In this document: one piece after another, positions 2,664-29,992 of the stretch
Numbering within the stretch: the stretch's first letter is position 1
How the letters are laid out: each line of letters opens with the position of its first letter
Assembly: GCA_021161825.1 (NCBI GenBank)
Contig: JAGGZW010000031.1
Coordinates: 1 to 37,681, forward strand
Source of the DNA: Thermoproteales archaeon
GTDB lineage: Archaea > Thermoproteota > Thermoprotei > Thermofilales > B69-G16
Direction: 5' to 3'
DNA: 37,681 nt
Translations under genes and position numbers: made by a program
Notes under the pieces: generated by a model
The model's database searches: none
Told to the model about the DNA's origin: nothing
The model's input: the letters and a program-made list of their open reading frames with translations, nothing else

Positions 2664-5513
2664 TCATCCCTTAGTTACACCTACAGGTTTAAGTCTGACC
2701 ACTAGCGTTGCTATTCCAACGTCATGGCTTACTTTTGCTACTCTATCCACGTCTTTATAAGCATTAGGAGCCTCTTCAGCTACAACTCTCATGCTATCGG
2801 CTCTTACAATTATTCCCTTAGCTTCTAAATCTCGTATAATTCGAGAAGCTCTAAACGTTCTAACAGCTTCAGCTCTACTTCTTAATCTTCCAGCACCGTG
2901 AGCCGTAGATCCAAACGTTATATCCATAGCTGTTGGCTGTCCTATCAGAATATATGAAGCTGTTCCCATGGACCCTGGTATAATTACTGGTTGACCGATG
3001 CTCCTGTAATCTTTTGGTATGGCTGGATGCCAAGCTGGAAATGCTCTTGTCGCGCCTTTTCTATGCACATAGACTTTCACTCTTTTGTCATTTACTTTGT
3101 GTTCTTCCAATTTTGCAATATTATGAGCTACGTCGTAAATCAAGTGCATATCAAGATCATCCGCTGATTTCCTAAGCACATGCTCGAATGCTTGTCTAGT
3201 CCAATGCATTATTATCTGCCTGTTTGCCCATGCAAAGTTTGCAGCTGCTGACATTGCAGCAAAATATTCTTCTGCTTCTCTACTTGTTACAGGTACGCTC
3301 ACTAATTCTCTATCTGGTAGTGGAACGCGATATCTTCTGGCTGCGATTTCCATTTGTTTAAGATAGTCGCTGCATACCTGGTGACCTAATCCTCTGCTTC
3401 CTGTATGGATCATTACCATTACTTGTCCTTCCTCGTATATTCCCATTAACTTAGCGGCTTCCCTGTTGAATATCTTGTCAACAACCTGTATCTCTAGGAA
3501 ATGATTTCCACTCCCTAAGGTTCCTAGCTGATTTCTACCTCTAGTTTTTGCACGATGAGACACTCTATCAGGGTCTGCAGTCGTCATATGCCCATTTTCT
3601 TCTATGTGTTTCCTATCTTCCGGCCATCCATATCCATGGTCTATCGCCCAATCAGCACCTTCAGCTAGCACTTTCTCCAGTTCGCTAATGCTTAATCTAA
3701 GCTTCCCCGTCGACCCGAGACCAGAAGGTATATACCTGAACAATGTATCAATCAATTTCTTAAGTACTGGTCTAACATCATCATACATTAAATTAGTTCT
3801 CAACACTCTTACTCCACAATTTGACACAATGAAATTATTGGCTATAAAATTATGGTTTTCATCGTTAACTGTTATATCGTATACTTTTCCATTATATTTT
3901 TTAATTTTTATTTCGTCAATTTCATCATATACTATTTCGCCGTTAACATTTTTTTCTAGAAATTCTTCAAATGTTAGGAAATCCTCAGGTATTCTCGCAT
4001 CTTCAACATTTTCATAAACGCTTCTTTCTACAAATCTCTGATTTACTCTATTATTATAAACTTCCGCTAAAATCGCTACTGGTATTCCTTTCTTATACTG
4101 TTCTTTAATAAGTCTTCTCAAAACTCTTCTTTCTTTGGTTATTTTCAGTTTTAATTTCAAATATACTATTGCAGCAAGTGCTAGTTTTCTCCTCTTACTA
4201 TTATATTCATATCCTATTCTAGAATATAATTTTATTAAATTTACAGGGTCTGATTTTATTAATAATCTCCAGCAAATCTTACCATTTTCTTCATATGCCT
4301 TTTTTATTACTGATTTTACTCCAAATTCTCTTAAAATTTTTTGTAAATCTTTTAGGAAAGATTTTCCATTTTCTGAAAGATTTTTCAACTTGACTATTTT
4401 AAGTTCGGGCATGTAAAAGTTATAACCGTTAAAGGTTTTTGGCTTAGAAAGTTCAGCGCCAAAATATGCAGCTATAAATAGTCTCTTCATCCATAAAGGC
4501 AGTTTATAAACGTACAGTGGTATACGGTATTTTGCTTCGCTTTTCTTCCCTCTTGGATAGCCCATTTTATAGAAAAGCTCAGTTAAACTTTTTGCAGAAA
4601 CTTTTAGTTGATATTCTTTATGTTTGAAAGAGTACCCATTATGTTTGAACATCCTAAGACGAGAATATATTGAGGCTTTATAGCCTATTTTTTCTAGGTC
4701 ATTTTTTATTTGTTCAAGATCTTCTTTTCTCCCATACAATTGTAGATTTTTGCCGTTTATTGTACCATTGCCTAATGCATAGCCTAAAATTTTCAATAAA
4801 TATGGTAGTTTTGCATTGATTGATGTTAAAGGTAGTAAATCACGCTTTTTTAATTCGTTTCTTATACTAGGAGAAAATTCTTCTTCCCTGATAATAGTAA
4901 ATTTTATAGGTTTCTCATATTCTACTCCCTCAAATGGATATAAGGCAATTTCTATCCCTTCTCTTAACTCCCCAGCTTTCACCATACCAATATTCTTCAC
5001 CAAGACAGGATGATCTTCAGATAATTCTAGAGTATATCCGCTTTTTGTTTTGACACTATATAATATTTTCTCGTTTCTATACAAGAACAACATTACACTA
5101 GTTTTTTTAGGTAATCCTTTACTCTTGTCTATAACTGTTACTTCTCCCCCTTTAGCTAAATCCTCTATGTTAATTTTATAGCCTAATGGTGTTAGAACTT
5201 TAGTTCCCGGAGGTAGACAATTAATATCATAACCAACGCCACCGGGACTTATAACTCCCTCATTAGCGTCGAGAGCCGCTACGCCGCCTATTGGAAATCC
5301 GTAGCCTTGATGCCCATCAGGCAAAACTATTGAATATTTGTATATTCCAGGAAGATGAGCTACATTTGCCGCTTGCACTAGAGTTAGATCGTTTTTCATT
5401 TTTTCTATGAGAACATCATCCGCGAATACTCGGACAGGTACTTTCATGCCCTTCTTATATGATTGAGGTATTTCCCAAACGTATTTATCTAATCTTTTTA
5501 ATGGTATAGACAT
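2664..5513 (-). CDS. rtcB: RtcB RNA-splicing ligase precursor with in-frame intein
   Basis: GTP- and Mn-dependent tRNA-splicing ligase that joins 2',3'-cyclic phosphate and 5'-OH ends after removal of archaeal tRNA introns. The precursor is 949 residues. Removing the intein (residues 99-565) leaves 482, the normal RtcB length. The N-extein ends GGVGYDIN and the C-extein begins CGVRVL, restoring the metal-ligand motif D-I-N-C. The other conserved histidines are visible in NHFLEIQ, HTGSRGLGHQ, HNIAKLEEH and GSTAHGAGRLRSR, the last being the guanylylated histidine region. The ATG at 5513 is chosen because an AGGGG ribosome site lies just upstream and MSIPLKRLDK begins the family homology; a longer reading to 5585 adds 24 unlikely residues. 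It converges with the AOR gene. Confidence 0.95.
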   Translation of the reverse strand: MSIPLKRLDKYVWEIPQSYKKGMKVPVRVFADDVLIEKMKNDLTLVQAANVAHLPGIYKYSIVLPDGHQGYGFPIGGVAALDANEGVISPGGVGYDINCLPPGTKVLTPLGYKINIEDLAKGGEVTVIDKSKGLPKKTSVMLFLYRNEKILYSVKTKSGYTLELSEDHPVLVKNIGMVKAGELREGIEIALYPFEGVEYEKPIKFTIIREEEFSPSIRNELKKRDLLPLTSINAKLPYLLKILGYALGNGTINGKNLQLYGRKEDLEQIKNDLEKIGYKASIYSRLRMFKHNGYSFKHKEYQLKVSAKSLTELFYKMGYPRGKKSEAKYRIPLYVYKLPLWMKRLFIAAYFGAELSKPKTFNGYNFYMPELKIVKLKNLSENGKSFLKDLQKILREFGVKSVIKKAYEENGKICWRLLIKSDPVNLIKLYSRIGYEYNSKRRKLALAAIVYLKLKLKITKERRVLRRLIKEQYKKGIPVAILAEVYNNRVNQRFVERSVYENVEDARIPEDFLTFEEFLEKNVNGEIVYDEIDEIKIKKYNGKVYDITVNDENHNFIANNFIVSNCGVRVLRTNLMYDDVRPVLKKLIDTLFRYIPSGLGSTGKLRLSISELEKVLAEGADWAIDHGYGWPEDRKHIEENGHMTTADPDRVSHRAKTRGRNQLGTLGSGNHFLEIQVVDKIFNREAAKLMGIYEEGQVMVMIHTGSRGLGHQVCSDYLKQMEIAARRYRVPLPDRELVSVPVTSREAEEYFAAMSAAANFAWANRQIIMHWTRQAFEHVLRKSADDLDMHLIYDVAHNIAKLEEHKVNDKRVKVYVHRKGATRAFPAWHPAIPKDYRSIGQPVIIPGSMGTASYILIGQPTAMDITFGSTAHGAGRLRSRAEAVRTFRASRIIRDLEAKGIIVRADSMRVVAEEAPNAYKDVDRVAKVSHDVGIATLVVRLKPVGVTKG
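3819..5219 (-). other. Intein inside RtcB, with LAGLIDADG-type endonuclease region
   Basis: 467 residues inserted between Asn98 and the Cys that becomes residue 99 of mature RtcB. It begins with the splice nucleophile Cys (CLPPGTKVL) and ends with the block F/G pattern HNFIANNFIVSN followed by extein Cys. The penultimate residue is Ser, not the common His. A TKSGYTLELSEDHPVL segment is the block B hint motif. Two LAGLIDADG-like helices are visible, LKILGYALGNGTI and LFIAAYFGAELSKP. In the first, the usual acidic residue is Asn, so cleavage activity may be reduced. A short region before the C-terminal splicing block (KEQYKKGIPVAILAEVYNN) could be a DNA-binding helix-turn-helix. The reading frame is uninterrupted, as expected if splicing is essential for the host enzyme. 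Confidence 0.93.
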
Positions 5514-5737
5514 TTTACCCCTGAATAGTAGACGAGGTAGTAAAATATTAATATTATTATATCTAAAATATAAAATTATACTCAAAGTATAATAATATAT
5601 TATGAAAATACTGGGTGAGAAACTTGATCATAAAAAAGAAAGTAGCATTGACAGCTTTTATTTTTACAAATGTATACGGTGAAGAATATTCAAATATTGT
5701 CGAGCATTGTAGAGCAATTTAAAACAGTGATTATATT

Positions 5738-15253: not shown

Positions 15254-15586
15254 TTAAGGTTTGCATGCTTTATACGGGCAAACTTCTACATATAAAAGAG
15301 ACCCGTCACTCCATATTCTATAAGTATACGCACATCCCATTTTTTGCTGCCTAAAACCTTCTAGCTTCTCTTTTATTGTATAGTTCCAGTAGATGATTTT
15401 TATCTCAACTCTACCTATTACGGTAAAGTTTGATTTATTAACTATATTTTCTGCCTCCATCTCTGCGCATTTCCATGCTTCGATTTCTCTGTCTAGAATA
15501 CATATTCTATTATTAATAAATAGCGACAACATATATGTTACCGTTAAAACGAAAGTTACTATTGTTATCAAAGCATCTATTTTCAT
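15254..15586 (-). CDS. Small membrane-anchored protein of the pilus operon
   Basis: 110 residues. One hydrophobic helix at about 5-26 (ALITIVTFVLTVTYMLSLF) is followed by an exported domain with five cysteines and sequons. Its ATG overlaps the stop of the TadC/FlaJ-like gene by ATGA, so it is made together with it. The layout (short cytoplasmic tip, one helix, small outer domain) is like the small proteins of the plus-strand operon and like minor pilins or TadE/F-type pseudopilins. No K/R-G prepilin cleavage site is visible. Its exact function is unknown. Confidence 0.7.
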   Translation of the reverse strand: MKIDALITIVTFVLTVTYMLSLFINNRICILDREIEAWKCAEMEAENIVNKSNFTVIGRVEIKIIYWNYTIKEKLEGFRQQKMGCAYTYRIWSDGSLLYVEVCPYKACKP

Positions 15587-16845
15587 AAGCTAACCCCTAA
15601 CAGGCCGGGAGTTATTACTACTGCGAACTTGTAACCTATCAAAATAAGGCTTGATAAGTAGGGTAAGTAAAGCGGTGAATATAGCGGATTCCCCTCTCGA
15701 CACGTAGCAGTGGATATTGATAAGGAAATAGCGTTTAAACCCAGAACAACATCCAATGCCATTTCTATTTTCATTACCAACTCTTTGCTGGGAATGAACA
15801 CACCTGCATAACCGATATGCTGTAGGGAGGCAAAATATTCTAGAGTCGTAATGAGTATTCCATATATCACAGCTACAACGATCGCTTCTAGAAAAGCGTA
15901 AACAAGCATTACTAAAGTTTTAGATCTTAATTTTTTAAATGTTTCAACATATCGGCTTAAGAACATCTCCAGCTTGTTAACATACTCTCTTATGTTAGAT
16001 CCGCTATATAGTGCGAGCAAGTAGAGCGCTGTAGTTGATGCCTTAGCAATTCCATACCATTTTCCGCACAGCAGGTAATCGGGATTGTCTATTTCAAGAC
16101 ATTTAAATAAGTTGAGCGGGCATGCCGAGGCTTTTCTCACGAGTTCAAGCGCTTCATTTAGAATATTGCATAGTCTCTTCTGCTCAAAAAACATTAAAAT
16201 AGAGAGCGGAAACGTGAAAGATAAAGATGTTAGAAATGGTTTATCAATATTATAGTATTGTAGTATAAAAAACGAGAAAAACGGGAACAATAGGAGAAGC
16301 AAGTTTTTCTTTTCTCTTAATGGCATATGCATTTCTATAGGATATATAGTTAAGCCTAGGAGCCCAGCTGGTATAGATAATGCTGAAAATATTAGTAAAC
16401 TAACTATAGCAAATTGTGCATTTGTAAAGAACAATACGCTTGCAATAATGCTCGGCATTAACGTTGTAAATACTGATACAAACTGGTATATCTGTGAAAT
16501 GTTATAATCCGCTAGTTCTAAGCTCGTTTCCACCTCCTTCAATTCTTGATTAAAATATTGTAAAAGCAATTCCCTGCTTCCTGAAATGTGAGCTTTGAAA
16601 GCCGCGTTAAGCACTTTTTTGAATCGTTTGCTGTACACGTTACATTCTTTACCAAGCGATGAGATTATATCTATACCGTCCAGAAAATCGATTATCTTCA
16701 TTTCTTTCAACTTGTTTATTGTAGTTAGGGGAGGAAGGGGGGACGATGCTAGTAAGAGATATAACGGTAGAGCGTTGATTTCGCTTTTTATCCATTGGGA
16801 AATTCTTAAAAAAATATTTAAAGTAGACATTTTTTCGAGATTCAT
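15583..16845 (-). CDS. TadC/FlaJ-like membrane platform protein of a type IV filament system
   Basis: 420 residues with about seven to eight hydrophobic helices. Two clusters of helices (about 115-220 and 310-420) flank a charged cytoplasmic loop, the arrangement of GspF/TadC/FlaJ inner-membrane proteins that anchor the secretion ATPase and feed pilin subunits into the filament. Family assignment rests on topology and the gene neighbourhood (pilin directly upstream, ATPase beyond it), since the sequence is divergent. The start ATG overlaps the pilin stop by ATGA, and the 3' end overlaps the next gene likewise. Confidence 0.72.
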   Translation of the reverse strand: MNLEKMSTLNIFLRISQWIKSEINALPLYLLLASSPLPPLTTINKLKEMKIIDFLDGIDIISSLGKECNVYSKRFKKVLNAAFKAHISGSRELLLQYFNQELKEVETSLELADYNISQIYQFVSVFTTLMPSIIASVLFFTNAQFAIVSLLIFSALSIPAGLLGLTIYPIEMHMPLREKKNLLLLLFPFFSFFILQYYNIDKPFLTSLSFTFPLSILMFFEQKRLCNILNEALELVRKASACPLNLFKCLEIDNPDYLLCGKWYGIAKASTTALYLLALYSGSNIREYVNKLEMFLSRYVETFKKLRSKTLVMLVYAFLEAIVVAVIYGILITTLEYFASLQHIGYAGVFIPSKELVMKIEMALDVVLGLNAISLSISTATCREGNPLYSPLYLPYLSSLILIGYKFAVVITPGLLGVSL

Positions 16846-17234
16846 CCTAAAACTTCCACAGTTATTTTCTGCTCGCCATCAGGTGTTCTGATAATACCCT
16901 CTACATTCTCACCCGGATTGAAAGATCCACCGCTTAAAGGTATTTCCAAATTAATAGCTTCGCCACGACCTAACGATACGCTTTGACTTCCTGTAGCTCC
17001 ATTAGCCAGTATCACGGATACTAAACCGTTGAAATTTTCTGTTCCATCATTTCTCAACGTTATGTATAGATTTGAACCTACAACATAAGCTCCTGGTTCA
17101 GCGTATACAAGTGGTTTTTTCACAGCGCTGCTCGTAGTTGATATGATATACCAGGAAACCAGAACGGCTGATACGAGAAATGCGACTATTACCAGTACGA
17201 CAACTATTGGTGGAACGCCGCCTTTGGAATTCAA
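16842..17234 (-). CDS. Type IV pilin-like protein with class III signal peptide
   Basis: 130 residues from a TTG start with GGGTGA just upstream. The N-terminus MNSKGGVPPIVVVLVIVAFL is a typical archaeal class III signal peptide. A lysine-glycine (then glycine) precedes a 20-residue hydrophobic stretch, so the PibD/EppA-type peptidase would cut after KG or KGG. The mature part begins with the filament-forming helix, then a beta-rich domain (SNLYITLRNDGTENFNG) resembling archaeal pilins and archaellins. It is the most likely main filament subunit of this locus. The prepilin peptidase itself is not in the window. Confidence 0.85.
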   Translation of the reverse strand: MNSKGGVPPIVVVLVIVAFLVSAVLVSWYIISTTSSAVKKPLVYAEPGAYVVGSNLYITLRNDGTENFNGLVSVILANGATGSQSVSLGRGEAINLEIPLSGGSFNPGENVEGIIRTPDGEQKITVEVLG

Positions 17235-17278
17235 GGTTTCACCCTTAGAAATGTGCGTTAAGCTATAAAAAGACGAAA

Positions 17279-18487
17279 TTATGAGGTGATCGAATTTAGG
17301 TATTTTTCCGATAGTTCATAATATACATCTATGAAATCCCCTACCATCAGCTTGCAGCAAAGAATTTCTCTAAATCTCTCATCGGGCATGTGCCTTGTCC
17401 CGTCAAATACGGGAATCAGTTTCCCATCGTTGCTTAAGTAGACACCTTCCACTCTGCGGAATATCTTTCCTTCAACTATATACTTTTTAACGACAATCAG
17501 ACAATCGATGAGTCGTAGAACAGTTTCTACCGTGGCATCATGAACGTTCTGCCTCATTAATTCAGCCATGCTGAAAATTGCTTTTTTAGCGTTTGGAGCA
17601 TGATAAGTCGTTAGCGCTGCAATGCCTGACCTACCTGCTTCAATCCAGCTCCATATCTCTTCTCCTCTCAGCTCACCGACAACTAGTATATCGGGTCTTT
17701 CATAGCGCATGCTTTGTCTAATCAGCGTTGTAATTGGCGATGAGACGCTGGCTTTACTATATGCTACGTTACCCTTTCTCAAGAAAATTTCTCTTACTTG
17801 TTCAATGATTGAAATGCGTAGATGAGGATATAATTCTATGATTTCGTTTAATAAGCTGGTTAGCAATGTTGTTTTACCTGAGCCTGAAGGCCCTACTATC
17901 GCAACTATGCTAGGTTTTAAAATTATAGTCAACAATCGGATAGCCAATAGTGGATTAACTATCTCCGATAGTTTGGGAATCTTAACGATTCTTGTAGCTG
18001 TCATCTCAATTTCTCCGCTAATTAATGGGAGTTTAAAATAGAGTCTCCAGTTACCTATCTCGGCCTCTGATTGAGGTTTGGAATAATCTATTTGAGCCCC
18101 TGATTTTATCGCTAGTCTGTTTATCGTTTTTTCAGGCTCGAAATCTTCTATGACTATTTTATAGCGCTTACCTTCAACTGTTGCCCACACGTTTTCTCCT
18201 CTCACGAACACTTCTTGAGTCCCCGAATACTCGATTAGTGGAGTAAGAGATCCCCAAGTAGGATCGTTTTTTAAGGGAAAAACGTAGATCCTTTCATTGT
18301 CGAATACGATTTTCCCGCTGCCACATTCGATGATTTTTGAGTATTCTCTTACCCTCAACTTGTCGGATTTAATATTAAGAAGACCTACCTTGATCGTTGG
18401 TTTTTTCAAGGTTACTATTTCCTTGGCCTCGCCTGTGTTTTCAATAGTAGTCAGCTTATTTTTTAAAATTTTAAATGATTTATGCAT
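17279..18487 (-). CDS. Type II/IV secretion (VirB11/TadA/PilB-like) ATPase
   Basis: 402 residues. A divergent N-terminal domain (about 1-150) is followed by the RecA-like core: Walker A GPSGSGKTTLL at 199-209, an Asp-box-like RISIIEQVREIF at 224-235, Walker B ILVVGELRGEE at 267-277 and a His-box TTYHAPNA around 293-300. These motifs match assembly ATPases of pili, archaella and Tad systems, which power subunit insertion at the membrane. The ParA-like gene ends one base before its ATG (TAAAATG). The neighbouring pilin and TadC/FlaJ-like genes support the role. Confidence 0.9.
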   Translation of the reverse strand: MHKSFKILKNKLTTIENTGEAKEIVTLKKPTIKVGLLNIKSDKLRVREYSKIIECGSGKIVFDNERIYVFPLKNDPTWGSLTPLIEYSGTQEVFVRGENVWATVEGKRYKIVIEDFEPEKTINRLAIKSGAQIDYSKPQSEAEIGNWRLYFKLPLISGEIEMTATRIVKIPKLSEIVNPLLAIRLLTIILKPSIVAIVGPSGSGKTTLLTSLLNEIIELYPHLRISIIEQVREIFLRKGNVAYSKASVSSPITTLIRQSMRYERPDILVVGELRGEEIWSWIEAGRSGIAALTTYHAPNAKKAIFSMAELMRQNVHDATVETVLRLIDCLIVVKKYIVEGKIFRRVEGVYLSNDGKLIPVFDGTRHMPDERFREILCCKLMVGDFIDVYYELSEKYLNSITS

Positions 18488-18488
18488 T

Positions 18489-19241
18489 TTATCGCCTTAG
18501 AATAGTATTTACTTTTAAGAGTCTAACTTTAGAAACTTTTTTATCGAAGCCCTTTTTCATTGTCGCTATTTTCAGGGCTAATTCCACTAAATTTTTCTGA
18601 ACTTGACTTGAGATACGAGCTAAAACGTTCGATAAGTTGCCCGGATTCATTATCGAAAGATAAGGATCGAACGGTATTGTAAAAACAGAATTATGCATCT
18701 TTCGAATATTTACTAAGTATTTTTCAATTCCAAGGTGTTTGTTCAATACGGGTATTACGATACGATTCCCGGTATAGCATTTACTCACAGCTTTTATTAT
18801 GAAATCGCTGGGATTGTAGATCAATAAAACTATATCACAGTTATCTATAAAAGAATTATATTCTCCGTTTTGATATGCAGGTAAGTCGAATATTGCTATA
18901 TCAAAAAACTTTTCAATGGACTTCAAAAGTTTTCTCACGCTATTATTATTTACAGAGCCCAGAGGACCGTTGTTTGGTATAAGGTAAAAATCGACTGTTT
19001 TATCCTTTATAGATAATTCGCATTTTATTATTGCTTCTATAGCATCCCCATCGTTAATTATATTTCTTAAGTATGGTGGTGGCGGATTAGTTATTATTAT
19101 ATGCGAACTGTTTCCTCCTGCTCCAGTGTCTATCAATATTGTTCTTTTACCAGCACCAGAGTATAGAATAGTTAATAGAACCGCTAACGTAGATTTCCCT
19201 GTTCCTCCTTTACATCCAGATGTTAGGCATACTTTCAGCAT
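18489..19241 (-). CDS. ParA/MinD-like P-loop ATPase in the pilus operon (TadZ-like position)
   Basis: 250 residues with the deviant Walker A KGGTGKST (K11 to T18), a DTGAG switch near residue 38 and a hydrophobic strand followed by DLPAYQNG in the Walker B/switch II position. There is no DNA-binding domain. Proteins of this SIMIBI class place or polarise cell machines. In bacterial Tad pilus operons the equivalent is TadZ/CpaE. Here it is the first gene of the pilus operon, one base from the ATPase gene. Its role in pilus positioning is inferred. The receiver-like N-terminal domain of TadZ is absent. Confidence 0.85.
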   Translation of the reverse strand: MLKVCLTSGCKGGTGKSTLAVLLTILYSGAGKRTILIDTGAGGNSSHIIITNPPPPYLRNIINDGDAIEAIIKCELSIKDKTVDFYLIPNNGPLGSVNNNSVRKLLKSIEKFFDIAIFDLPAYQNGEYNSFIDNCDIVLLIYNPSDFIIKAVSKCYTGNRIVIPVLNKHLGIEKYLVNIRKMHNSVFTIPFDPYLSIMNPGNLSNVLARISSQVQKNLVELALKIATMKKGFDKKVSKVRLLKVNTILRR

Positions 19242-19325
19242 AATCCCTTAATATTGTGAAAAACAGTAAATAAGCAAGGTATTTTGGTTTTCCTTAAATC
19301 AATTTTTTCACATGACTATGGGAGT

Positions 19326-20303
19326 ATGAGCGATAAACTTTTAACACTTTTGCTTTTGATAACTATTTTATTCGGTATTGCGGCGTATACGTTTTCCAGG
19401 TTTGACAATTTTAAATTTAGTGAGAACCATAATGAAAAATCTTTAACGATTAAAGACGGTAGTCACCAAGCGTATGTAAAACTTCATTTAAGACCATGCA
19501 GCATAGTCGAGTTTGAAAACTTAAACTATACCAATTCATCAGTATTATCCATTTCCACGAATAAGCTTTTGGTTCTAAAAGCCCATAAATTCGAGAATGC
19601 AACTCATCAATGCATTTTTACTCATTGGATAGTAAATGGAAGCATTATAACGGATAATCCCCTAAAATTAAACATTACAAATTCAAGCTTTGTTCTCGTA
19701 GAGCCTAAATATGAAGTTCTTGCCAAGCATAGTTGTAGTGGCCTATTAAAAGATTTGCTTAATTTTGACAATTTAAAAACGTTTGTGAGATATGAAAGTG
19801 ACTATGTGAGAGTTAACGGAGAAATTATAGAATTTAGGAATGCATTCATTTTTATTCCTTTCAAAGAACCTATCCATCTGTATGATTCCACTTGCAAAGG
19901 TTGGTTAAAAATTTCTAATGTAAGATTTTTCGTCAGCTCTAGAACTCTCTCACCAAAGTTTACTATGGTTCTGGTTTTAAATAATCCAGTTAAACTGTAT
20001 AAAAAAGAAGTTTACGCGTTGGGCTATTTCTATTTTAGTAGAAGTGAAGCAACAAGTTATCTCGTTAAGGAGAAAGTAATCTTCGATGGAAGAGAAGTTC
20101 CGGATTACGCTTATCAAGCGTTGATGATTAGCAACGTAAACACAGGTTTATTCTCTATTTCGATTTTAGATCTACTTGATAAGAATTTTCTCCCACATGA
20201 ATCGTTTTATGAGAGCCTTGCTGTAGGTGTTTTTGTTTACGGTTTTGATAGCGGTTATCTGGACTTGAGTAAAGCTTCAATTTGTTATGGAGGAGGATCA
20301 TGA
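19326..20303 (+). CDS. Membrane-anchored extracellular protein with an InlB-like repeat motif
   Basis: 325 residues from ATG 19326; a TTG at 19284 would add 14 residues. The N-terminal hydrophobic helix (about 5-22, KLLTLLLLITILFGIAAY) is followed by a beta-rich outer domain with many N-x-S/T sequons. A motif THWIVNG followed by strands around residues 98-125 resembles the divergent InlB_B-repeat (HWxxNG) that recurs in the next protein. It is the first gene of the plus-strand pilus operon and overlaps the next gene by ATGA. Its function is unknown; a surface or filament-associated role is inferred. Confidence 0.7.
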   Translation: MSDKLLTLLLLITILFGIAAYTFSRFDNFKFSENHNEKSLTIKDGSHQAYVKLHLRPCSIVEFENLNYTNSSVLSISTNKLLVLKAHKFENATHQCIFTHWIVNGSIITDNPLKLNITNSSFVLVEPKYEVLAKHSCSGLLKDLLNFDNLKTFVRYESDYVRVNGEIIEFRNAFIFIPFKEPIHLYDSTCKGWLKISNVRFFVSSRTLSPKFTMVLVLNNPVKLYKKEVYALGYFYFSRSEATSYLVKEKVIFDGREVPDYAYQALMISNVNTGLFSISILDLLDKNFLPHESFYESLAVGVFVYGFDSGYLDLSKASICYGGGS

Positions 20304-22915
20304 ATTTAAAAAAGATTATGTTCTTAATGTTTTTAATTTCCATGCTTTATTCAACTTTCTACAATACTTTTGCAGGATGGAATTATTACGTTCAAGTTTA
20401 TACACCAAATTATGAAGACCATATTGATATCGATACTAAAAATATTAGAATTAATAATCTGGAACCAAACTCTACCTATAAGATCATCTTTAGATATAGT
20501 GCAGATATCTTTTATGATATTGGACATGATGCAGGTAGCGTTAGTGCTAGTTGGGAACATCCAAGCGGTTGGACTAAGATTTTCAGCTTTAGCGGAAGAA
20601 TAGAAGGAGGCAAAGCTAGCGTTTCTTCTTCCTTTTCGACGATTGTTTCTACCAAAGATAAGAGTTCTATATCGCTTACCGTTAGATTATGGGCGGTGGC
20701 AGACGGGGGAGCCTCGAATGGTTACGACACTGCTGAAATAGTAGTGCGTGCTTTTCTAACGATATCCTCGATTGAAAAAGTAGATAATGACGGCGACAAT
20801 GATGGAGGTGATGGATATAGCGACAGGAAATATAGCAGGTTAAATGTTAAAACTTACTCCGAAAAAGGAAACCTGCTGTATCACATTCCCATAAACGTTT
20901 CCGAGTACAAAGACGGAACTTATAAAACACCATTTTACTTAAGTAAGGTAAGCAATTCTGACAGTAGCTTTACCGTTACTTTAACAGCACCCCTAAAGTA
21001 CGTGACGCCGTCAACTGTCAGGTATTTTATTAACTGGAGCGTCATGAAAAGTCCCTACTCTAACGTTTTGATTAAGTGGTCTCTAAATAATACAATCGAA
21101 GTATATGTTCCAAACGATTGTATTAGAGAGAGCCGCGCCTTTTACACGCATAAATACTATTGGTATCGAATGAACATTAACTCAAGCATCCCCGTATTAA
21201 TAAGCTATCAAAGTGATATAGGAAGCGGAGTTAACTGCACGCCATTCACGTTATATAAAGAATCAGTTGATGATGAAGGTTTAAGCGCCGTTCTCCAAGC
21301 ACCTTATGAGGTATTTTACAACGAAACTCTTTGGATTTTCAAGTTTTGGAAATATAAAATACCCGACCGTAGGATAAGGTGGTCTATTAGCAGTGAAAAT
21401 CCTAAAAAATTTTCGTGCCCAAGAGCCACTATGAACACTGCAATAATTTACGCCGTTTACGAAAGATATGCTAGAATTGTGGTAGAGTCAGAACCCATTA
21501 AGAACGTGCCAGTATCTGTGAAATATCAGAACTTCAGCTTTATCAATTATACAGATTTCGTAATCCCAAAAATTGCGGAAGGCACGGCTATCGATCTAGA
21601 GGTTCCAGAGTTTTTATCTATTGATGGAAAGAATTACAAATTTTCTCACTGGCTTATAAACGGCAAACCTTGCTACGATAGCCGTATCAGCTTTAATGCT
21701 TTTGGCTTTACAAGAGTTATTGCTTTATATTCGTTATCCAGCGGGGAAGGCGAGTATAAGGTTATTAACTTAGGAGCTGATTGGCTATTACCTGGAGAAT
21801 CGATTAACATCACGTTGCCCTATAGCGGTAATTACACGTTTATCGTAGATCCGCTATACGATATTTCGGCAAATTTAACGGCATTGATAGTTTCTCCGGA
21901 TATGAGAGACTACAAATACGTCGATTTAAGCAATCTAAGCGTAAAGGCGGTAAAACCCTATAAGCCAAAAATCGGCTCTAGTCTCATTTCACCTGGCAAT
22001 TTAACAGATTATCCGCAGATCATTACTGGAAGATTCTATGGATGGTATTTCCTTGGAGCTTCCGCTTGGATGCCAGCTTTAAAATCCGAGGATTACACAT
22101 ACTTTGACGGAGTATTTTGTGAAGATAATTGGACTACATATGCGATATATGATCTTTCAATTATTTGGAATAATTACACTGCTCAAAATATCAATAGCTC
22201 AGCAAAGGGAATTGTTTGGAAAAAGAGAATTGTCGTAACCTCAATTAACTTTACGGTTGAGGGCTTTTTTGAAGCTGATAAACTTTACATAATATGGAAG
22301 GTTTCGTATAGGTTTATGCCGCCTCCAAAGCTGAACTTAACTCTTGAGCTACCTCATCAAGATATATGGTTGACGCTTGAAAAAGATGGAGATATTCTAT
22401 TTGCTCAAAAATTAGGGAGAGGCTTTAGGTTCTTCGGCATTTCTGATTATAATAGAACAGTGACATGCGATTACATTGTTCCATTAGATATTCTAATTGA
22501 AAAATTCGGTTATGAACAGGTAATATTAAATGGTAGGGTTAGATGGTCTGGTCCTTTAGATACGCCAATAAACATCGTTCCCTTTAGTGAAGAGAAAGAT
22601 ATTCCTCTGGTTTTTGTAGGTATGCAGCTTCTAGAATATAATCCTAGTCCTCTACATCTCCTATTTAAATGGACTATACTTAACGACACGTTACTACCTG
22701 GCTATTCCCAGTATTGCCCATGCGTTAGAATAGATGTGCTAACAGAGTGGGACGGAGTTCTTCACGCAAACGTTGGAGTAAGGTCAAAGCGGGATCCCAC
22801 GCTTTACGTAGTAGATTTAGATGTAGACACAAGCTGGCCTAATAGAGTAACGGTTTTCTTTGTTCAGAAAACAGCTAGGAATATTTTGCTCGTAGTCCCG
22901 CCTACTAGGTTGTAA
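20300..22915 (+). CDS. Large secreted protein with repeat domains and Asp-rich loop
   Basis: 871 residues. The ATG at 20300 is chosen because GGAGG lies immediately upstream and the start overlaps the preceding stop (ATGA). The first about 25 residues are a hydrophobic signal sequence. An Asp-rich segment (VDNDGDNDGGDGYSD, about 161-175) looks like a calcium-binding loop. InlB-type motifs recur: INWSVMK near 244, FKFWKYKI near 347 and FSHWLINGKP near 446. Many N-x-S/T sequons suggest heavy glycosylation. There is no C-terminal membrane helix. It may be a pilus-tip or cell-surface adhesin; this is inferred from its location and repeats. It is the largest gene of the locus. Confidence 0.75.
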   Translation: MNLKKIMFLMFLISMLYSTFYNTFAGWNYYVQVYTPNYEDHIDIDTKNIRINNLEPNSTYKIIFRYSADIFYDIGHDAGSVSASWEHPSGWTKIFSFSGRIEGGKASVSSSFSTIVSTKDKSSISLTVRLWAVADGGASNGYDTAEIVVRAFLTISSIEKVDNDGDNDGGDGYSDRKYSRLNVKTYSEKGNLLYHIPINVSEYKDGTYKTPFYLSKVSNSDSSFTVTLTAPLKYVTPSTVRYFINWSVMKSPYSNVLIKWSLNNTIEVYVPNDCIRESRAFYTHKYYWYRMNINSSIPVLISYQSDIGSGVNCTPFTLYKESVDDEGLSAVLQAPYEVFYNETLWIFKFWKYKIPDRRIRWSISSENPKKFSCPRATMNTAIIYAVYERYARIVVESEPIKNVPVSVKYQNFSFINYTDFVIPKIAEGTAIDLEVPEFLSIDGKNYKFSHWLINGKPCYDSRISFNAFGFTRVIALYSLSSGEGEYKVINLGADWLLPGESINITLPYSGNYTFIVDPLYDISANLTALIVSPDMRDYKYVDLSNLSVKAVKPYKPKIGSSLISPGNLTDYPQIITGRFYGWYFLGASAWMPALKSEDYTYFDGVFCEDNWTTYAIYDLSIIWNNYTAQNINSSAKGIVWKKRIVVTSINFTVEGFFEADKLYIIWKVSYRFMPPPKLNLTLELPHQDIWLTLEKDGDILFAQKLGRGFRFFGISDYNRTVTCDYIVPLDILIEKFGYEQVILNGRVRWSGPLDTPINIVPFSEEKDIPLVFVGMQLLEYNPSPLHLLFKWTILNDTLLPGYSQYCPCVRIDVLTEWDGVLHANVGVRSKRDPTLYVVDLDVDTSWPNRVTVFFVQKTARNILLVVPPTRL

Positions 22916-22917
22916 GC

Positions 22918-23487
22918 ATGAATTACATTGTTTTAATAATTGCTGCTATCATGATTTCGTCAATAATAGTTTTTTCAGCAGTTGTCCATCGGATATCATT
23001 TCGCGCAGTTGAAGTTAACTTCGATGATATTCTATGCCTATACGACAAATTACGCTATGGCGATAGCGTTACCTTAAATTACGATGTTTATGTACGCGAG
23101 AAAAAGCATATTCTTAGCATTTGCTTTGAAAATGGATGTAAAGATATCCCCCTATTCGAGACTATAATTTCAATTCGCTCCTCTAATCTACCCGAGTATG
23201 GCAATAACTCTTTATTATGCAACGATTATTTTAATTTTTACACTAATAGAACCCACGCGATCTTGAATTCATGCATATTCATCGAAGAACATGATCATAC
23301 TATAGTAGTTTACTACGTTAAGCCTTTCAGAGAAGGTCGATATTCGAGGCTTATATTTTCTGAAAGTAGAGTAGACTATGTCGTACTATATGTTCAAAAT
23401 GCCAAATTGTTAATAGATGACGTTGAGGTTGTGGAAGTGTCAGGGTTTAACAATGTAGAGCTGCGGCAAATTCTATTACTTCCCTAG
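22918..23487 (+). CDS. Single-helix surface protein, minor-pilin-like
   Basis: 189 residues. One N-terminal hydrophobic helix (about 4-24, IVLIIAAIMISSIIVFSAVV) is followed by an outer domain with cysteines and sequons, among them NNS and NRT. Topology is like a pseudopilin or minor pilin, but no K/R-G processing site precedes the helix. It starts 2 nt after the large secreted protein, so both are from one transcript. No family was recognised. Confidence 0.65.
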   Translation: MNYIVLIIAAIMISSIIVFSAVVHRISFRAVEVNFDDILCLYDKLRYGDSVTLNYDVYVREKKHILSICFENGCKDIPLFETIISIRSSNLPEYGNNSLLCNDYFNFYTNRTHAILNSCIFIEEHDHTIVVYYVKPFREGRYSRLIFSESRVDYVVLYVQNAKLLIDDVEVVEVSGFNNVELRQILLLP

Positions 23488-23517
23488 CTTCCTTATATTG
23501 TATTATTCACAAAATAT

Positions 23518-23829
23518 ATGATGTTAGACGATGCTATAGTTTTCACGGCTATGATTTTGGCTTTTGTGGCTACGCTCAATCTATCGTTTTCTATAAGGTT
23601 CAGCGATACTTCATTTTACGAGCATTATGCAGCAAACTTGATTAATACGACTGGATTATCGCTTAGACCAGGATCTAGCTTCGTATACTTCTTCCCCACG
23701 CCTATTAGCATATACGACTCTGCCATTGGCGAATATTCTACATCAGCTGAAGGATCCTGTGGTGGAACATGCATTGTTATTTTAAAAACATCAGATAATG
23801 TTGTGAGGGTCATTACATGCGATTCCTAG
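23518..23829 (+). CDS. Small single-helix surface protein of the pilus operon
   Basis: 103 residues. The N-terminal hydrophobic helix is about residues 5-26 (DAIVFTAMILAFVATLNLSF), preceded only by MMLD. A short outer part includes GSCGGTC. The stop overlaps the next start (23817). It is one of a run of five small proteins with the same single-helix layout. Function unknown; a minor filament subunit is plausible. Confidence 0.6.
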   Translation: MMLDDAIVFTAMILAFVATLNLSFSIRFSDTSFYEHYAANLINTTGLSLRPGSSFVYFFPTPISIYDSAIGEYSTSAEGSCGGTCIVILKTSDNVVRVITCDS

Positions 23830-24149
23830 AGGCATTAGCCATATCGCTAGTTTTCGTAGTTTTTAGCGTTAGCTTTCACGCCCTATTAGTTTATAGGTAT
23901 CAATCCTATCACGCTTTCACTGTAAACAGGGCACTTGCTTGGCTTCTTCTACGCTCTGATTCTCTTCCTTACAGAAACAACTTTGAAAATCTAGTATTGG
24001 AAACTATTCCAAATGTCGTCTATATAAGAAATGGAAATTCTTCAAAATACCTGAGAAATTCCTCTCTCATCTACAGTTTTAGAGCAATATGGCTTGGCTT
24101 TAATGAGACTATTTCTCCAAAAATTGTGGTGGTTGGAGTTGAGCCGTAA
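23817..24149 (+). CDS. Small single-helix surface protein of the pilus operon
   Basis: 110 residues. The helix is about residues 5-26 (EALAISLVFVVFSVSFHALLV), followed by a short outer domain with N-x-S sequons. It overlaps the upstream gene by 13 nt and the start of the downstream gene by about 11 nt, which points to coupled translation. Similar in layout to its neighbours; no family recognised. Confidence 0.6.
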   Translation: MRFLEALAISLVFVVFSVSFHALLVYRYQSYHAFTVNRALAWLLLRSDSLPYRNNFENLVLETIPNVVYIRNGNSSKYLRNSSLIYSFRAIWLGFNETISPKIVVVGVEP

Positions 24150-24738
24150 AGGTCAAGTTTTGCTACTGGCCGTTATTTTTCTAGCCTTTTCAATTATTTA
24201 TGCAGCAAACAATTTTAGAAAACCTGTACCGGTTGTTGCAGAATATAGAGGTGAGTTGCAATCTGCCGAGCTTATTCACGCTGCGAGACTTTACTGGAGT
24301 AACGGATATGCCAGCATGGATTCCATTCTTTCGCTGCTGACAGACCTAGCTAAGAAGCATAAAATATACATGCCCAATGTTTCGTATGAAAACAATTTTA
24401 CTATTATTGGAGGTTTAACAGGTTACGGCTTCTACCGCACAGAATACAACGTATCAGTCATTTTCAGCGCTTGCTGGAATTGGCGTTTTAAAGGTTTCTA
24501 TTTTAAAGATTTGCATGGCGAAAAAGTGCTGTATAAAAGTTTTCTATTAGTTTATTATCACAACTATACTGCTCCTCAATGGGGTAGTATGATAATATAC
24601 CCTATTATAGAAGATCCCGCTGGGATATGCGATATCGTACGTGTTAAAGATGGGGCTTGGCTGGTAGGTTACCCGGCGCATAACGACGAATACACTCTTA
24701 TCGACGAATACGGGTTGAAACTGGTGATAAGAGAATGA
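24139..24738 (+). CDS. Pseudopilin-like protein with SRKGQ prepilin site
   Basis: 199 residues from TTG 24139, the start that places GGTGG at about 6 nt. The N-terminus then reads MSRKGQVLLLAVIFLAFSII, with a K-G at the expected PibD/EppA-type site followed by a hydrophobic stretch, much like the main pilin at 16842-17234. Earlier in-frame starts (24094, 24103, 24124) exist. The outer domain of about 170 residues has sequons and an aromatic-rich centre (SACWNWRFKGFYFKD). It could be a minor pilin or filament initiator. The 3' end overlaps the next gene by ATGA. Confidence 0.68.
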   Translation: MSRKGQVLLLAVIFLAFSIIYAANNFRKPVPVVAEYRGELQSAELIHAARLYWSNGYASMDSILSLLTDLAKKHKIYMPNVSYENNFTIIGGLTGYGFYRTEYNVSVIFSACWNWRFKGFYFKDLHGEKVLYKSFLLVYYHNYTAPQWGSMIIYPIIEDPAGICDIVRVKDGAWLVGYPAHNDEYTLIDEYGLKLVIRE

Positions 24739-25121
24739 ATCTATCATATGTTCTTTACTTTACGTTTTTCCTAGCCTCTCTTGCTTTAGCACTTAATTTT
24801 ATTAATATTTTAGATTCACCAAATATTGCCAAAAGTGACATTGCTCAATTAGTTTGCGATATATGTTTTATTTACGAAAATCCTGAGAGCCAAATTGTAA
24901 AATTTTATTATTTCAAAGGCAACATCGTAGAAATCCACAATGATGTTATCGTTCTGGATAAACCTTTTTGGGTTTTTCCGGCTTGTGGACGCCAAATCGG
25001 TAATAAAATCTATCTTCCAGTTAGCGTAGATTCAAGCCTTAAAGTTAGCGGAGTTACATGTCTAAAACTAGAGTATGAGGAAACAAAAGTTTCAGTTTCC
25101 AAGTGTAGTTTCGGTGGGTGA
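24735..25121 (+). CDS. Small single-helix surface protein with several cysteines
   Basis: 128 residues. The N-terminal hydrophobic helix is about 4-22 (SYVLYFTFFLASLALALNF), followed by an outer domain with five cysteines (VCDIC, FPAC, VTC, SKC). The ATGA overlap with the upstream gene shows coupling. Like the preceding genes it resembles a minor filament subunit, but no K-G cleavage site precedes the helix. No family recognised. Confidence 0.6.
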   Translation: MNLSYVLYFTFFLASLALALNFINILDSPNIAKSDIAQLVCDICFIYENPESQIVKFYYFKGNIVEIHNDVIVLDKPFWVFPACGRQIGNKIYLPVSVDSSLKVSGVTCLKLEYEETKVSVSKCSFGG

Positions 25122-25123
25122 TC

Positions 25124-25345
25124 ATGCTGAAGCTAAAATTCTTGATAGGTAGGAAGATAGGCGAAGCTGACAAATATAAAGAGATTATAAAACAGATCGT
25201 TGAAGCAGAGAAGAACATTAGTAAGCCTATCGATGTAGAAGTTGATATTTTTAAAATGCTAGAATATAGTTTAAAATATAAAGCATTAGCAAGAAAGATT
25301 AGAAAAAACGGTAAGTGGGTATGGATTGTAGAAATTGAGAGTTAA
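25124..25345 (+). CDS. Small basic cytoplasmic protein ending the pilus operon
   Basis: 73 residues, no hydrophobic helix, with a basic C-terminus (KYKALARKIRKNGKWVW). ATG 25124 is preferred because GGTGGG precedes it by about 6 nt; a GTG at 25118 is also in frame. It is directly coupled to the preceding gene. The function is not recognised. It is the only soluble protein of the plus-strand operon and could be a cytoplasmic helper. Confidence 0.55.
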   Translation: MLKLKFLIGRKIGEADKYKEIIKQIVEAEKNISKPIDVEVDIFKMLEYSLKYKALARKIRKNGKWVWIVEIES

Positions 25346-27538: not shown

Positions 27539-29992
27539 TCACCTGCTGAGAATACGACCAGTATATAGGTTAGCTAAAGGTAAAAGTTTTTCTCTGTCAA
27601 GAATCACAGGCATCCACAAGATCGCAATTGTAGATATTTCAACCTCTCTTTTCCTAGGTTTAACTTCAATTTTTATCGCTTTATTTGAATCAGGTTCGTA
27701 TTTTCTAATAATTTCCTTTAATTCTTGATCCATTTTTTGAAGAAGAATTTTAAGCTCACTCTCCAGCTCTATTATGTCTTTCTCCAGCTGCCTAGCTTTT
27801 TCCTCTTTCACTCTAATTCTCTTCCTTATTCTTTCAAAAGTTGCAAGCTTAGTTAAAGGCGATCTACGGGAAAATATAGAATGTGCAATCGATGCCCCCC
27901 TTACAGTCAACTGCTTTTTTAACTCTGCAATATCGGTTTTCAACACTTTCAGGCTTGCCCTTTTAGAATCTATCTTTTTCATTAAATTAGCTATCTTCTT
28001 ATCGTACCATAATCGCTTTTTCTCATACTCCTTTTCCTCAGTCTCTTCGAGCTTCTTTCTAACCTTAGCCAGAAAAGAATACAATGATTCCCCAGGTTGC
28101 GAATATATCTTAAGTCCTTCATAGCTCCATACTGTTATCTTATAATTAGTTAATACGAAATCTCTGATTATTCTAAATATCTTCTTGACAAATCTAGCTT
28201 TAGCATAGGAATCTGGAATATCTACGAATTTAAATTCCTTAAGCCAGCTAGATGCAAAATCTTTACTATCTATATCTTTTATTTCTAAGCCGAAAATACT
28301 ATCTTTTGTAAAATCTTCAAATGTTAAGTTTTCCTTTACTTCCGATATAAGCCTAAGATTAGCAGCGTGGTTGACAGGCGGTTTTGACCTTGATACGAAA
28401 ATTCTAGTTTCTGACATCAATACCGGGTAATACGCTTTGATCCCATCAATTTTTATATTAAACCTCGCCGGCAGGAAATAGTTAACTAGAGAATCTGCTG
28501 TCGTCGGCGGCAACGCTAGAATATTCTTTTCAATTACCACCTTATACTCTGAAGGTTTCTTATGAATACGTATTTTACCTTCATATCTCTCGACAAGCTT
28601 CCTTATCTCTCTAAGCGTTAACGGGCCACGTAGATAGGAAAGAGCCCATCTCGTTTTAAAGAGTATTTGTTTGTTTTCATGAACATTATGCACAAGGAAT
28701 ATTCTCTTACCAAGAGATGATATGATCTGAGATATTCTCTTAGTCTCTATGCTAGCCCCAGCAGTTGTCGTCGCGATTTTTAATCCTTCCATAACTCTAG
28801 CTTTGTCATTTTCAGTTTGAAGTCGTCCGATCATCCATACTCCGGTGTTCGATAGAGCCTTATAGTCTAAATCGACGGGATTTTGTGTGGATAAGATAAC
28901 TCCTAGTCCGAAAGCTCTAGCTTGTTTCAGTAATAACATGAGCAAGTGTTTTGAAGGGGGATTTTTAGGATATGGTGGAATATAACCGTAAACTTCATCG
29001 AAGTATAGAAGAGTTTTTAATTTAGTAGTGCCAGGCTGTTTAAACATCCAACCATACAAGTTTTGGAGAATCAGCGTTACGGCGAACATTCTCTGAGCTT
29101 CGTCTAGATGGGCTAGGTAAAAAACTACAACTCTAGGATTACCATCGCGCGTCCATAACAGCTCGTCAAAATTCATGTGAATGCCTGAAAGCCAATTTCT
29201 GAAGCTAGGTGCCGCTATAACTCTGTTGAGAGCTATTACAAGGTTCCTCCTATCCTTCTCTGGTAGGAAAAAATCGACTTCTATCGCACCTATATTCCCA
29301 AAGGGGGGATCCAGTATGTATGCTAATAGTTTGCTGAAATCAAGAGTTTCACCGTTTTTCCAGCAGTATTCTATGATGTGTGACAGCAAGACGTGCTCAT
29401 TGCTTTTAATAGGGTCAGATTCTAAACCAGCGAGCTGTAAAAGCGCTGATACTATATTCTTTATTTTTTCAAGCAATATATCCTCGTGGCTTTCCCAGCT
29501 CAAATCTTCAGGCATGTTTAAGTCATGTAATACTGAAACTGGAGTACCAACATCGCTGCCGGGAGTTAATATTAATACCTCGCTACTCTCGTCAAGTCTT
29601 CGAATCTTTTCTATACTCTGGTCGTAGCTTTCGATGCCTTTTCTCCAAAGCTCTGCTATTTTCGCCGCATACTCTTCTATTTTCAATCCCTCTCTTTTCG
29701 CTTGGATGGGGTCTATCCACTCAGCAAATTCTCCTGGTGCAAGATTAGGAAATCTCAGTGCAATGTTTACGGCATCACCTTTAGGATCGATAATAATGAC
29801 GGGAACTCCATGCAGTAGTAGCTCTTCTATTAGAACTATAGCAGCTCCCGTCTTTCCCGAACCCGTCATTCCTATAATAACTCCATGCGTTGTCAGATCA
29901 TCGGGATCTAGCAGATAAGGCTGCGCTTCCTCCTGTAATGTTTCAGGGTTCACTAGCCTTCCAAGATATAGGCCTCCTGCCACTTTACACAC
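27539..29992 (-). CDS. HerA/VirB4-like P-loop ATPase with C-terminal coiled coil
   Basis: 817 residues. Walker A GMTGSGKTG is at 41-49, IIIDPKGDAVNI follows, Walker B TLLYFDEVYG lies near 328-337 and a STQNPVDLDYKALSNTGVWMIGRL segment follows; these are the HerA/FtsK-type hexameric translocase motifs. The C-terminal half is a helix-rich region, with a predicted coiled coil around residues 625-760. Family members pump DNA or act as conflict and repair ATPases; this long form is not classical HerA, and no NurA nuclease gene is adjacent. GTG 29992 is leaderless behind a TATA box at 30016-30023. Its precise role is unknown. Confidence 0.82.
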   Translation of the reverse strand: MCKVAGGLYLGRLVNPETLQEEAQPYLLDPDDLTTHGVIIGMTGSGKTGAAIVLIEELLLHGVPVIIIDPKGDAVNIALRFPNLAPGEFAEWIDPIQAKREGLKIEEYAAKIAELWRKGIESYDQSIEKIRRLDESSEVLILTPGSDVGTPVSVLHDLNMPEDLSWESHEDILLEKIKNIVSALLQLAGLESDPIKSNEHVLLSHIIEYCWKNGETLDFSKLLAYILDPPFGNIGAIEVDFFLPEKDRRNLVIALNRVIAAPSFRNWLSGIHMNFDELLWTRDGNPRVVVFYLAHLDEAQRMFAVTLILQNLYGWMFKQPGTTKLKTLLYFDEVYGYIPPYPKNPPSKHLLMLLLKQARAFGLGVILSTQNPVDLDYKALSNTGVWMIGRLQTENDKARVMEGLKIATTTAGASIETKRISQIISSLGKRIFLVHNVHENKQILFKTRWALSYLRGPLTLREIRKLVERYEGKIRIHKKPSEYKVVIEKNILALPPTTADSLVNYFLPARFNIKIDGIKAYYPVLMSETRIFVSRSKPPVNHAANLRLISEVKENLTFEDFTKDSIFGLEIKDIDSKDFASSWLKEFKFVDIPDSYAKARFVKKIFRIIRDFVLTNYKITVWSYEGLKIYSQPGESLYSFLAKVRKKLEETEEKEYEKKRLWYDKKIANLMKKIDSKRASLKVLKTDIAELKKQLTVRGASIAHSIFSRRSPLTKLATFERIRKRIRVKEEKARQLEKDIIELESELKILLQKMDQELKEIIRKYEPDSNKAIKIEVKPRKREVEISTIAILWMPVILDREKLLPLANLYTGRILSR

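Follow-up and report, generated by a model that had tools for sequence, protein, structure and literature searches.

Crenarchaeal type IV pili (T4P), as seen in structures from Sulfolobus/Saccharolobus (6nav, 8tib, 6w8x) and Pyrobaculum arsenaticum (6w8u), combine pilins carrying a class III signal, a helix and a beta-sandwich with an ATPase and a platform protein. In clade 4G of the Thermoproteales, operonic MinD/FleN ATPases are accompanied by large exported proteins and numerous minor pilins, and the same census also mentions a Thermofilum-specific ATPase clade that is not associated with other pilins (Makarova 2016, PMC4858521). In Tad pili the pilins are short and the platform is split over two genes with one T2SSF domain each, and a TadZ-archaeal link has been described (Denise 2019, PMC6668835). 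DNA exchange is served by Ups together with Ced in the Sulfolobales and by Ted in the Thermoproteales (PMC9905601; PMC11868833). Here we describe a locus of 13 genes, gA to gM, in the window, by which we mean the whole stretch of 37,681 nucleotides analysed, which is contig C31 of an archaeal genome (G000) of 1.67 Mb that is 96% complete and probably belongs to the order Thermofilales. The locus very probably encodes a full archaeal T4P assembly machine of its own clade, specific to the order and most likely producing an adhesive filament. Our reasons for placing it among the archaeal T4P as a separate clade are the fold of its pilin, the profile match of its platform and the separate clade of its ATPase.

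Two divergent operons span positions 15254–25345. The minus-strand operon runs from a ParA/MinD protein (gE) through an assembly ATPase (gD), a pilin (gC) and a platform (gB) to a small anchored protein (gA). The plus-strand operon encodes two large exported proteins (gF and gG), five single-helix proteins (gH–gL) and a small soluble protein (gM). An earlier sequence-only reading of this DNA had proposed this gene set, and all 13 genes were recovered at the coordinates it gave. Its interpretation is supported in part: the operonic ParA/MinD ATPase and the succession of pilin-like proteins do belong to a type IV filament system.

The assembly ATPase gD (17279–18487, minus strand, 402 aa) is of the VirB11/TadA/FlaI class found in archaeal T4P. 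It matches T2SSE in Pfam (E=2.4e-19), its profile finds FlaI (3.6e-22) and CpaF (7e-21) in the PDB, and the Walker A/B motifs and the His box are conserved. Its best NCBIfam relatives are TrbB (4.5e-21), VirB11 (1.2e-19) and TadA, names that would suit a conjugative or protein-secretion machine (type IV secretion system). Such a machine is nevertheless highly improbable, as the pilin has a type IV pilin fold and a class III signal, the platform is T2SSF-like, and no VirB4/VirB6/VirB2-like gene was detected at the locus or in the window genome. A quick tree with several long branches, drawn for 54 ATPases from the class Thermoprotei, sets the gD family apart from the remaining T4P ATPases as a clade of 25 sequences from this order and one outlier family (SH-aLRT 100).

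The second ATPase, gE (18489–19241, minus strand, 250 aa), is a ParA/MinD protein of FleN/TadZ-like type with matches to CbiA/AAA_31 at about 1e-7 and a deviant Walker A motif, KGGTGKS. It is not KaiC-like, unlike FlaH of the archaellum, and the gene set does not resemble that of an archaellum. An operonic TadZ-like ParA protein, TadZ naming only its type here, beside a TadA-class ATPase is also what the locus shares with bacterial Tad and archaeal Epd systems, in which a TadA-class ATPase is accompanied by a second ATPase, TadZ/MinD-like in Tad (PMC6668835). However, there is one platform gene where Tad has TadB and TadC, and the 420-aa gB aligns across a profile of FlaJ length. The pilin is a 130-aa protein with a large beta domain and not a short Flp pilin, and no TadE/F/G or secretin match was found among the proteins scanned against Pfam and NCBIfam. 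The number of platforms and the length of the pilin led us to reject an archaeal Tad (type IVc) pilus, which we consider very improbable. The label “Tad/type IV filament-like” given by the sequence-only reading stands in its second half; Tad is less apt for a system with a single platform and a long pilin of crenarchaeal pilus fold.

The major pilin gC (16842–17234, minus strand, 130 aa) has an N-terminal helix followed by a beta-sandwich and a class III prepilin signal (MNSKGG|VPPIVVV), the site being present in the alignment and the fold in the model. An AlphaFold2 (AF2) model built from two sequences reached a pLDDT of 83, and its top four PDB matches in Foldseek (6nav, 8tib, 6w8x and 6w8u; E 6.8e-5 to 2.9e-4) are all crenarchaeal T4P and alone fall below E=0.001. 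A prepilin peptidase of the PibD-type A24 family is encoded elsewhere in the window genome (contig C113, E=1.0e-8) and passes the cut-off.

The platform gB (15583–16845, minus strand, 420 aa, about 5–6 transmembrane (TM) segments) is an integral membrane protein of FlaJ/T2SSF type. Its relation to these proteins is seen by profile-profile comparison only, in which the profile of the gB family and one of FlaJ/T2SSF-type platforms align over 334 columns at 96.5% (E=7.5e-10). Decoys were negative, and of nine reference proteins that were scanned, five matched PF00482. Loci L127 and L140 (genomes G030 and G027, from other families of the class) encode gJ-like proteins together with platforms of FlaJ length, and the L127 platform matches the gB profile at 3e-15. 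These two loci may represent a bridge to standard archaeal T4P.

Conservation of the locus is far beyond chance. Of 27 genomes of the order, 21 have the ATPase, and all matches that this sample gave outside the order are weak (E about 1e-16 to 1e-19). The platform family occurs in 23 of the 27 and is strong in one genome of another family of the class, with a few weak matches elsewhere in the class. In a phylum sample of 300 genomes, matches at 1e-15 are confined to the order. An order ParA-(small protein)-ATPase-pilin-platform-anchor recurs across the Thermofilales, and gH-gI-gJ-gK-gL recurs in several genera, one block being sometimes inverted or moved. The genus of the window lacks the small protein that elsewhere separates ParA from the ATPase. 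Gene order is thus conserved in several families of the order, as the sequence-only reading would require. Two of the entries compared, L038 (a metagenome-assembled genome, Thermoprotei archaeon B69_G16) and L039 (G001, of the window's genus), are one genome, since scores and lengths are identical for every window protein.

A rival reading is membership in a crenarchaeal group already described, either 4E/4G or the Thermofilum ATPase clade. The locus is similar in composition to 4G, which has a diverged ATPase and TadC, a PilA pilin, a MinD-family ATPase, a pair of large exported proteins and numerous small minor pilins, and PMC4858521 mentions the Thermofilum-specific ATPase clade without linked pilins. 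By contrast, the ATPases of 4G-like loci (L110–L112 and L116, assigned to 4G by gene content) lie outside the present clade in the quick, long-branched tree, 4G-like platforms do not align with gB, and the census describes no operon of the Thermofilum clade in its main text. We consider membership unlikely, and an identity of gB with the 4G-like platforms is unsupported. The sequence-only reading had called the gene mix non-standard; its composition had in fact been described for 4G, yet in the quick tree its ATPase falls apart from the 4G-like sequences. Compared with the structurally known crenarchaeal T4P, with which it has the class III signal, helix, beta-sandwich, ATPase and platform in common, the locus differs in its operonic ParA/MinD, its strongly diverged 420-aa platform and its fixed set of five single-helix proteins. 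For the Thermofilum-specific ATPase clade, which had no linked pilins in the 2016 census, the locus supplies a full operon that includes a pilin, a platform and minor pilins.

Some observations weigh against a T4P assignment. gB has no meaningful Pfam match, either alone or through its relatives, and found nothing useful in the PDB; its link to T2SSF is a moderate profile-profile score, and an AF2 model from two sequences failed (pLDDT 36.6) and was not used. In addition, gH, gI, gJ and gL have no canonical prepilin cleavage site. On balance, we regard the system as a genuine and conserved variant of the archaeal T4P. The homologies of ATPase, ParA, pilin and platform, the class III signal, the genomic prepilin peptidase and the conserved gene order are direct results; that a filament forms, that it serves adhesion and which parts gA and gF–gM play in it we infer. 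In the proposed mechanism, gE would place or regulate the machine, and hexameric gD would drive gB, which would lift PibD-processed pilins from the membrane into a thin filament. The filament would consist of gC as major pilin, with gK and probably gH, gI, gJ and gL as minor pilins. gG and gF may be exposed adhesin or tip/S-layer proteins, and gA may be a small protein that partners the platform in the membrane. The most likely product is an adhesive filament by which a cell makes contact with other cells or with surfaces.

Among the remaining genes, gG (20300–22915, plus strand) encodes a large secreted protein with a signal peptide and is the candidate adhesin or tip protein; its start was corrected to ATG 20300, giving 871 aa, and its relatives of 875–1114 aa lie upstream of gH in other genera. 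gF (19326–20303, plus strand, about 325 aa) is exported and has an N-terminal anchor; its frame is open from TTG 19284, its sequence resembles gG and it has relatives in L039, L040, L045 and L058. Minor pilin-like gK carries a class III signal (SRKG|QVLLL). Its start most likely lies at TTG 24139 and was moved there from 24094, which gives a gene at 24139–24738 on the plus strand and a protein of 199 aa (MSRKG|QVLLLAV), because this length fits the 199-aa orthologues; these have a common [KR]GQ motif and the same length. The other single-helix genes of the plus strand are gH (22918–23487, minor pilin-like, 189 aa), gI (23518–23829, 103 aa), gJ (23817–24149, 110 aa) and gL (24735–25121, 128 aa). 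gA (15254–15586, minus strand, 110 aa) is a small protein with an N-terminal anchor, and its orthologues come after the platform gene in most families. The gA, gI and gJ families have N-terminal motifs (M[KR]hDA, M..DEA close to the N-terminus, and MRhLEA, respectively) that place an acid at residue 3–5 of the unprocessed chain, resembling pilin Glu5 without a leader peptide. The last gene, gM (25118–25345, plus strand; alternative start ATG 25124), encodes a small soluble basic protein of 75 aa with an orthologue by sequence in L039/L038 only; a 71-aa protein occupies its position in L044.

The main surprise, seen by comparative genomics only and beyond the reach of the sequence-only reading, is a linkage of the pilus to Ted-like genes in relatives. 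In five genera, the pilus genes adjoin such genes, comprising a TedA/VirB6 homologue, a small protein where tedC would lie and, in many cases, a VirB4-like ATPase. The linkage was seen in genomes G004 (L050/L154), G010 (L044), G016 (L156), G019 (L054), G020 (L057/L155), G025 (L041) and G015, in the last case at a second locus of that genome (L147). On the plus strand of G020, the series gG-gH-gI-gJ-gK-(gL place) runs straight into the gene at the TedC position, TedA, a large protein and a VirB4/HerA-like ATPase. In a Thermofilum-like genus (g3), the ParA-small-ATPase block adjoins a small membrane protein and membrane proteins of 260 and 800 aa, and a HerA/VirB4-class ATPase and a helicase lie in the same neighbourhood. 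Genomes G009, G011 and G013 keep their only ATPase of the clade, with ParA, within a Ted-like locus, and have a pilin/platform locus without clade ATPase 29–56 kb from it.

Identification of the Ted-like genes followed the TedC/TedA gene order (PMC9905601). TedC of a Pyrobaculum-like genome matches the Ted pilin entry 8dft (E=7.5e-64), and the profile of the 260-aa protein (A5, including two Vulcanisaeta-like members) finds the gene that follows this TedC at 6.2e-9, which makes TedA (VirB6-like) the most likely identity of the 260-aa protein. The small Ted-like protein has no sequence match to TedC, with which it agrees in position, size and TM layout, and identification as TedC by sequence was not possible. 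Large membrane proteins (800–1400 aa or more) adjoin TedA at L154:9112–13323, L155:8435–12283 and L149 from 11416; in the Thermofilales family of these proteins the N-terminus holds a TedA-like domain (hhalign 91.7%), and TedA of the Pyrobaculum-like genome is followed by an open frame of 5058 aa. One run of genes in the Vulcanisaeta-like L111 and L112 encodes ParA, a T4P-type ATPase, a protein of 4–6 TM segments and pilin-like proteins together with a TedA homologue and a protein at the TedC position.

One possibility, plausible though short of an even chance, is that the pilus serves, in the role of Ups, as the contact arm of an apparatus for DNA exchange and works with a Ted-like import machine with which it may share ATPase and ParA, the Ted half having been lost, or having diverged past recognition, in the window's genus. 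The adjacency in the seven genomes listed, the ATPase and ParA held within the Ted loci of G009, G011 and G013, and the TedA identification beside an 8dft-matching TedC all speak for it, and the arrangement is analogous to the Ups-Ced pair. On the other hand, gene linkage differs from function, a TedA profile of the Thermofilales without the Vulcanisaeta-like rows reaches only 28.7% in hhalign against Pyrobaculum TedA, and Ted and the pilus also occur apart. The TedA, large-protein and small-protein profiles have no match in the window genome or in G001 and G002, and in the window genome the VirB4 profile gives no more than generic HerA-level matches; TedA/VirB6, TedC/VirB2 and VirB4-like genes were thus not found there. 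Likewise, G005, G006 and G021 have the pilus with no Ted detected, whereas G008 and G023 carry Ted-like genes without this pilus. The two modules are separable, and the pilus must therefore be able to work alone; with no detectable Ted module in the window genome, it stands alone here. About 2 kb past the locus (27539–29992, minus strand) lies a gene for an 817-aa HerA/DUF87-type ATPase that is matched by the Ted HerA profile and that looks general, because similar proteins occur in other genomes of the order.

A role in DNA exchange and an adhesive T4P can be true together. Somewhat more tentatively, in Thermofilales and perhaps in Vulcanisaeta-like relatives, the pilus and Ted-like import could be two halves of one apparatus served by the same ATPase and ParA, of which the window's genus would retain the pilus half. 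The adjacency hints that the fibre helps cells to hold each other during DNA swap. If so, the pilus would give the Ups-like cell contact thought to be lacking in Ted-bearing archaea, and the repeated linkage suggests a partner for Ted DNA import in archaea without Ups. Ted loci of Thermoproteales include ParA/MinD genes, and T4P genes are not mentioned in the available portion of that report (Beltran 2023, PMC9905601); CedD and VirB4 have been noted in Thermofilales in a 2025 mLife paper. A pilus-import linkage is not described in the portions of PMC9905601 and PMC11868833 available to us, and within the literature searched we found no report tying T4P genes to Ted loci.

The archaeal T4P operons described here diverge from an 84 bp intergenic region (19242–19325), presumably the promoter region, and the extent given by the sequence-only reading is exact if gF starts at ATG 19326. 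Its statement that ATGA overlaps join most genes was too strong; read from the sequence, ATGA joins 4 of 11 junctions, GTGA joins one if gM starts at 25118, and the remainder are two longer overlaps and four gaps of 1, 2, 30 and 44 bp. Horizontal gene transfer was rejected on composition, as the guanine-cytosine content of the locus (0.366) resembles that of its flanks (0.374 and 0.357), and no relatives of the locus were found in the viral contigs searched. In the window genome, L141, L142, L143 and L145 include three further T4P-like ATPase/platform loci; L145 holds an orphan pilin-like frame and a 330-aa platform-like frame with no T4P ATPase nearby. Elsewhere in the window, positions 2664–5585 (minus strand) encode an RtcB-like protein of 973 aa with an apparent intein (YDIN-CLPPGTKVLTPLGY ... 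IVSN-CGVRVL).

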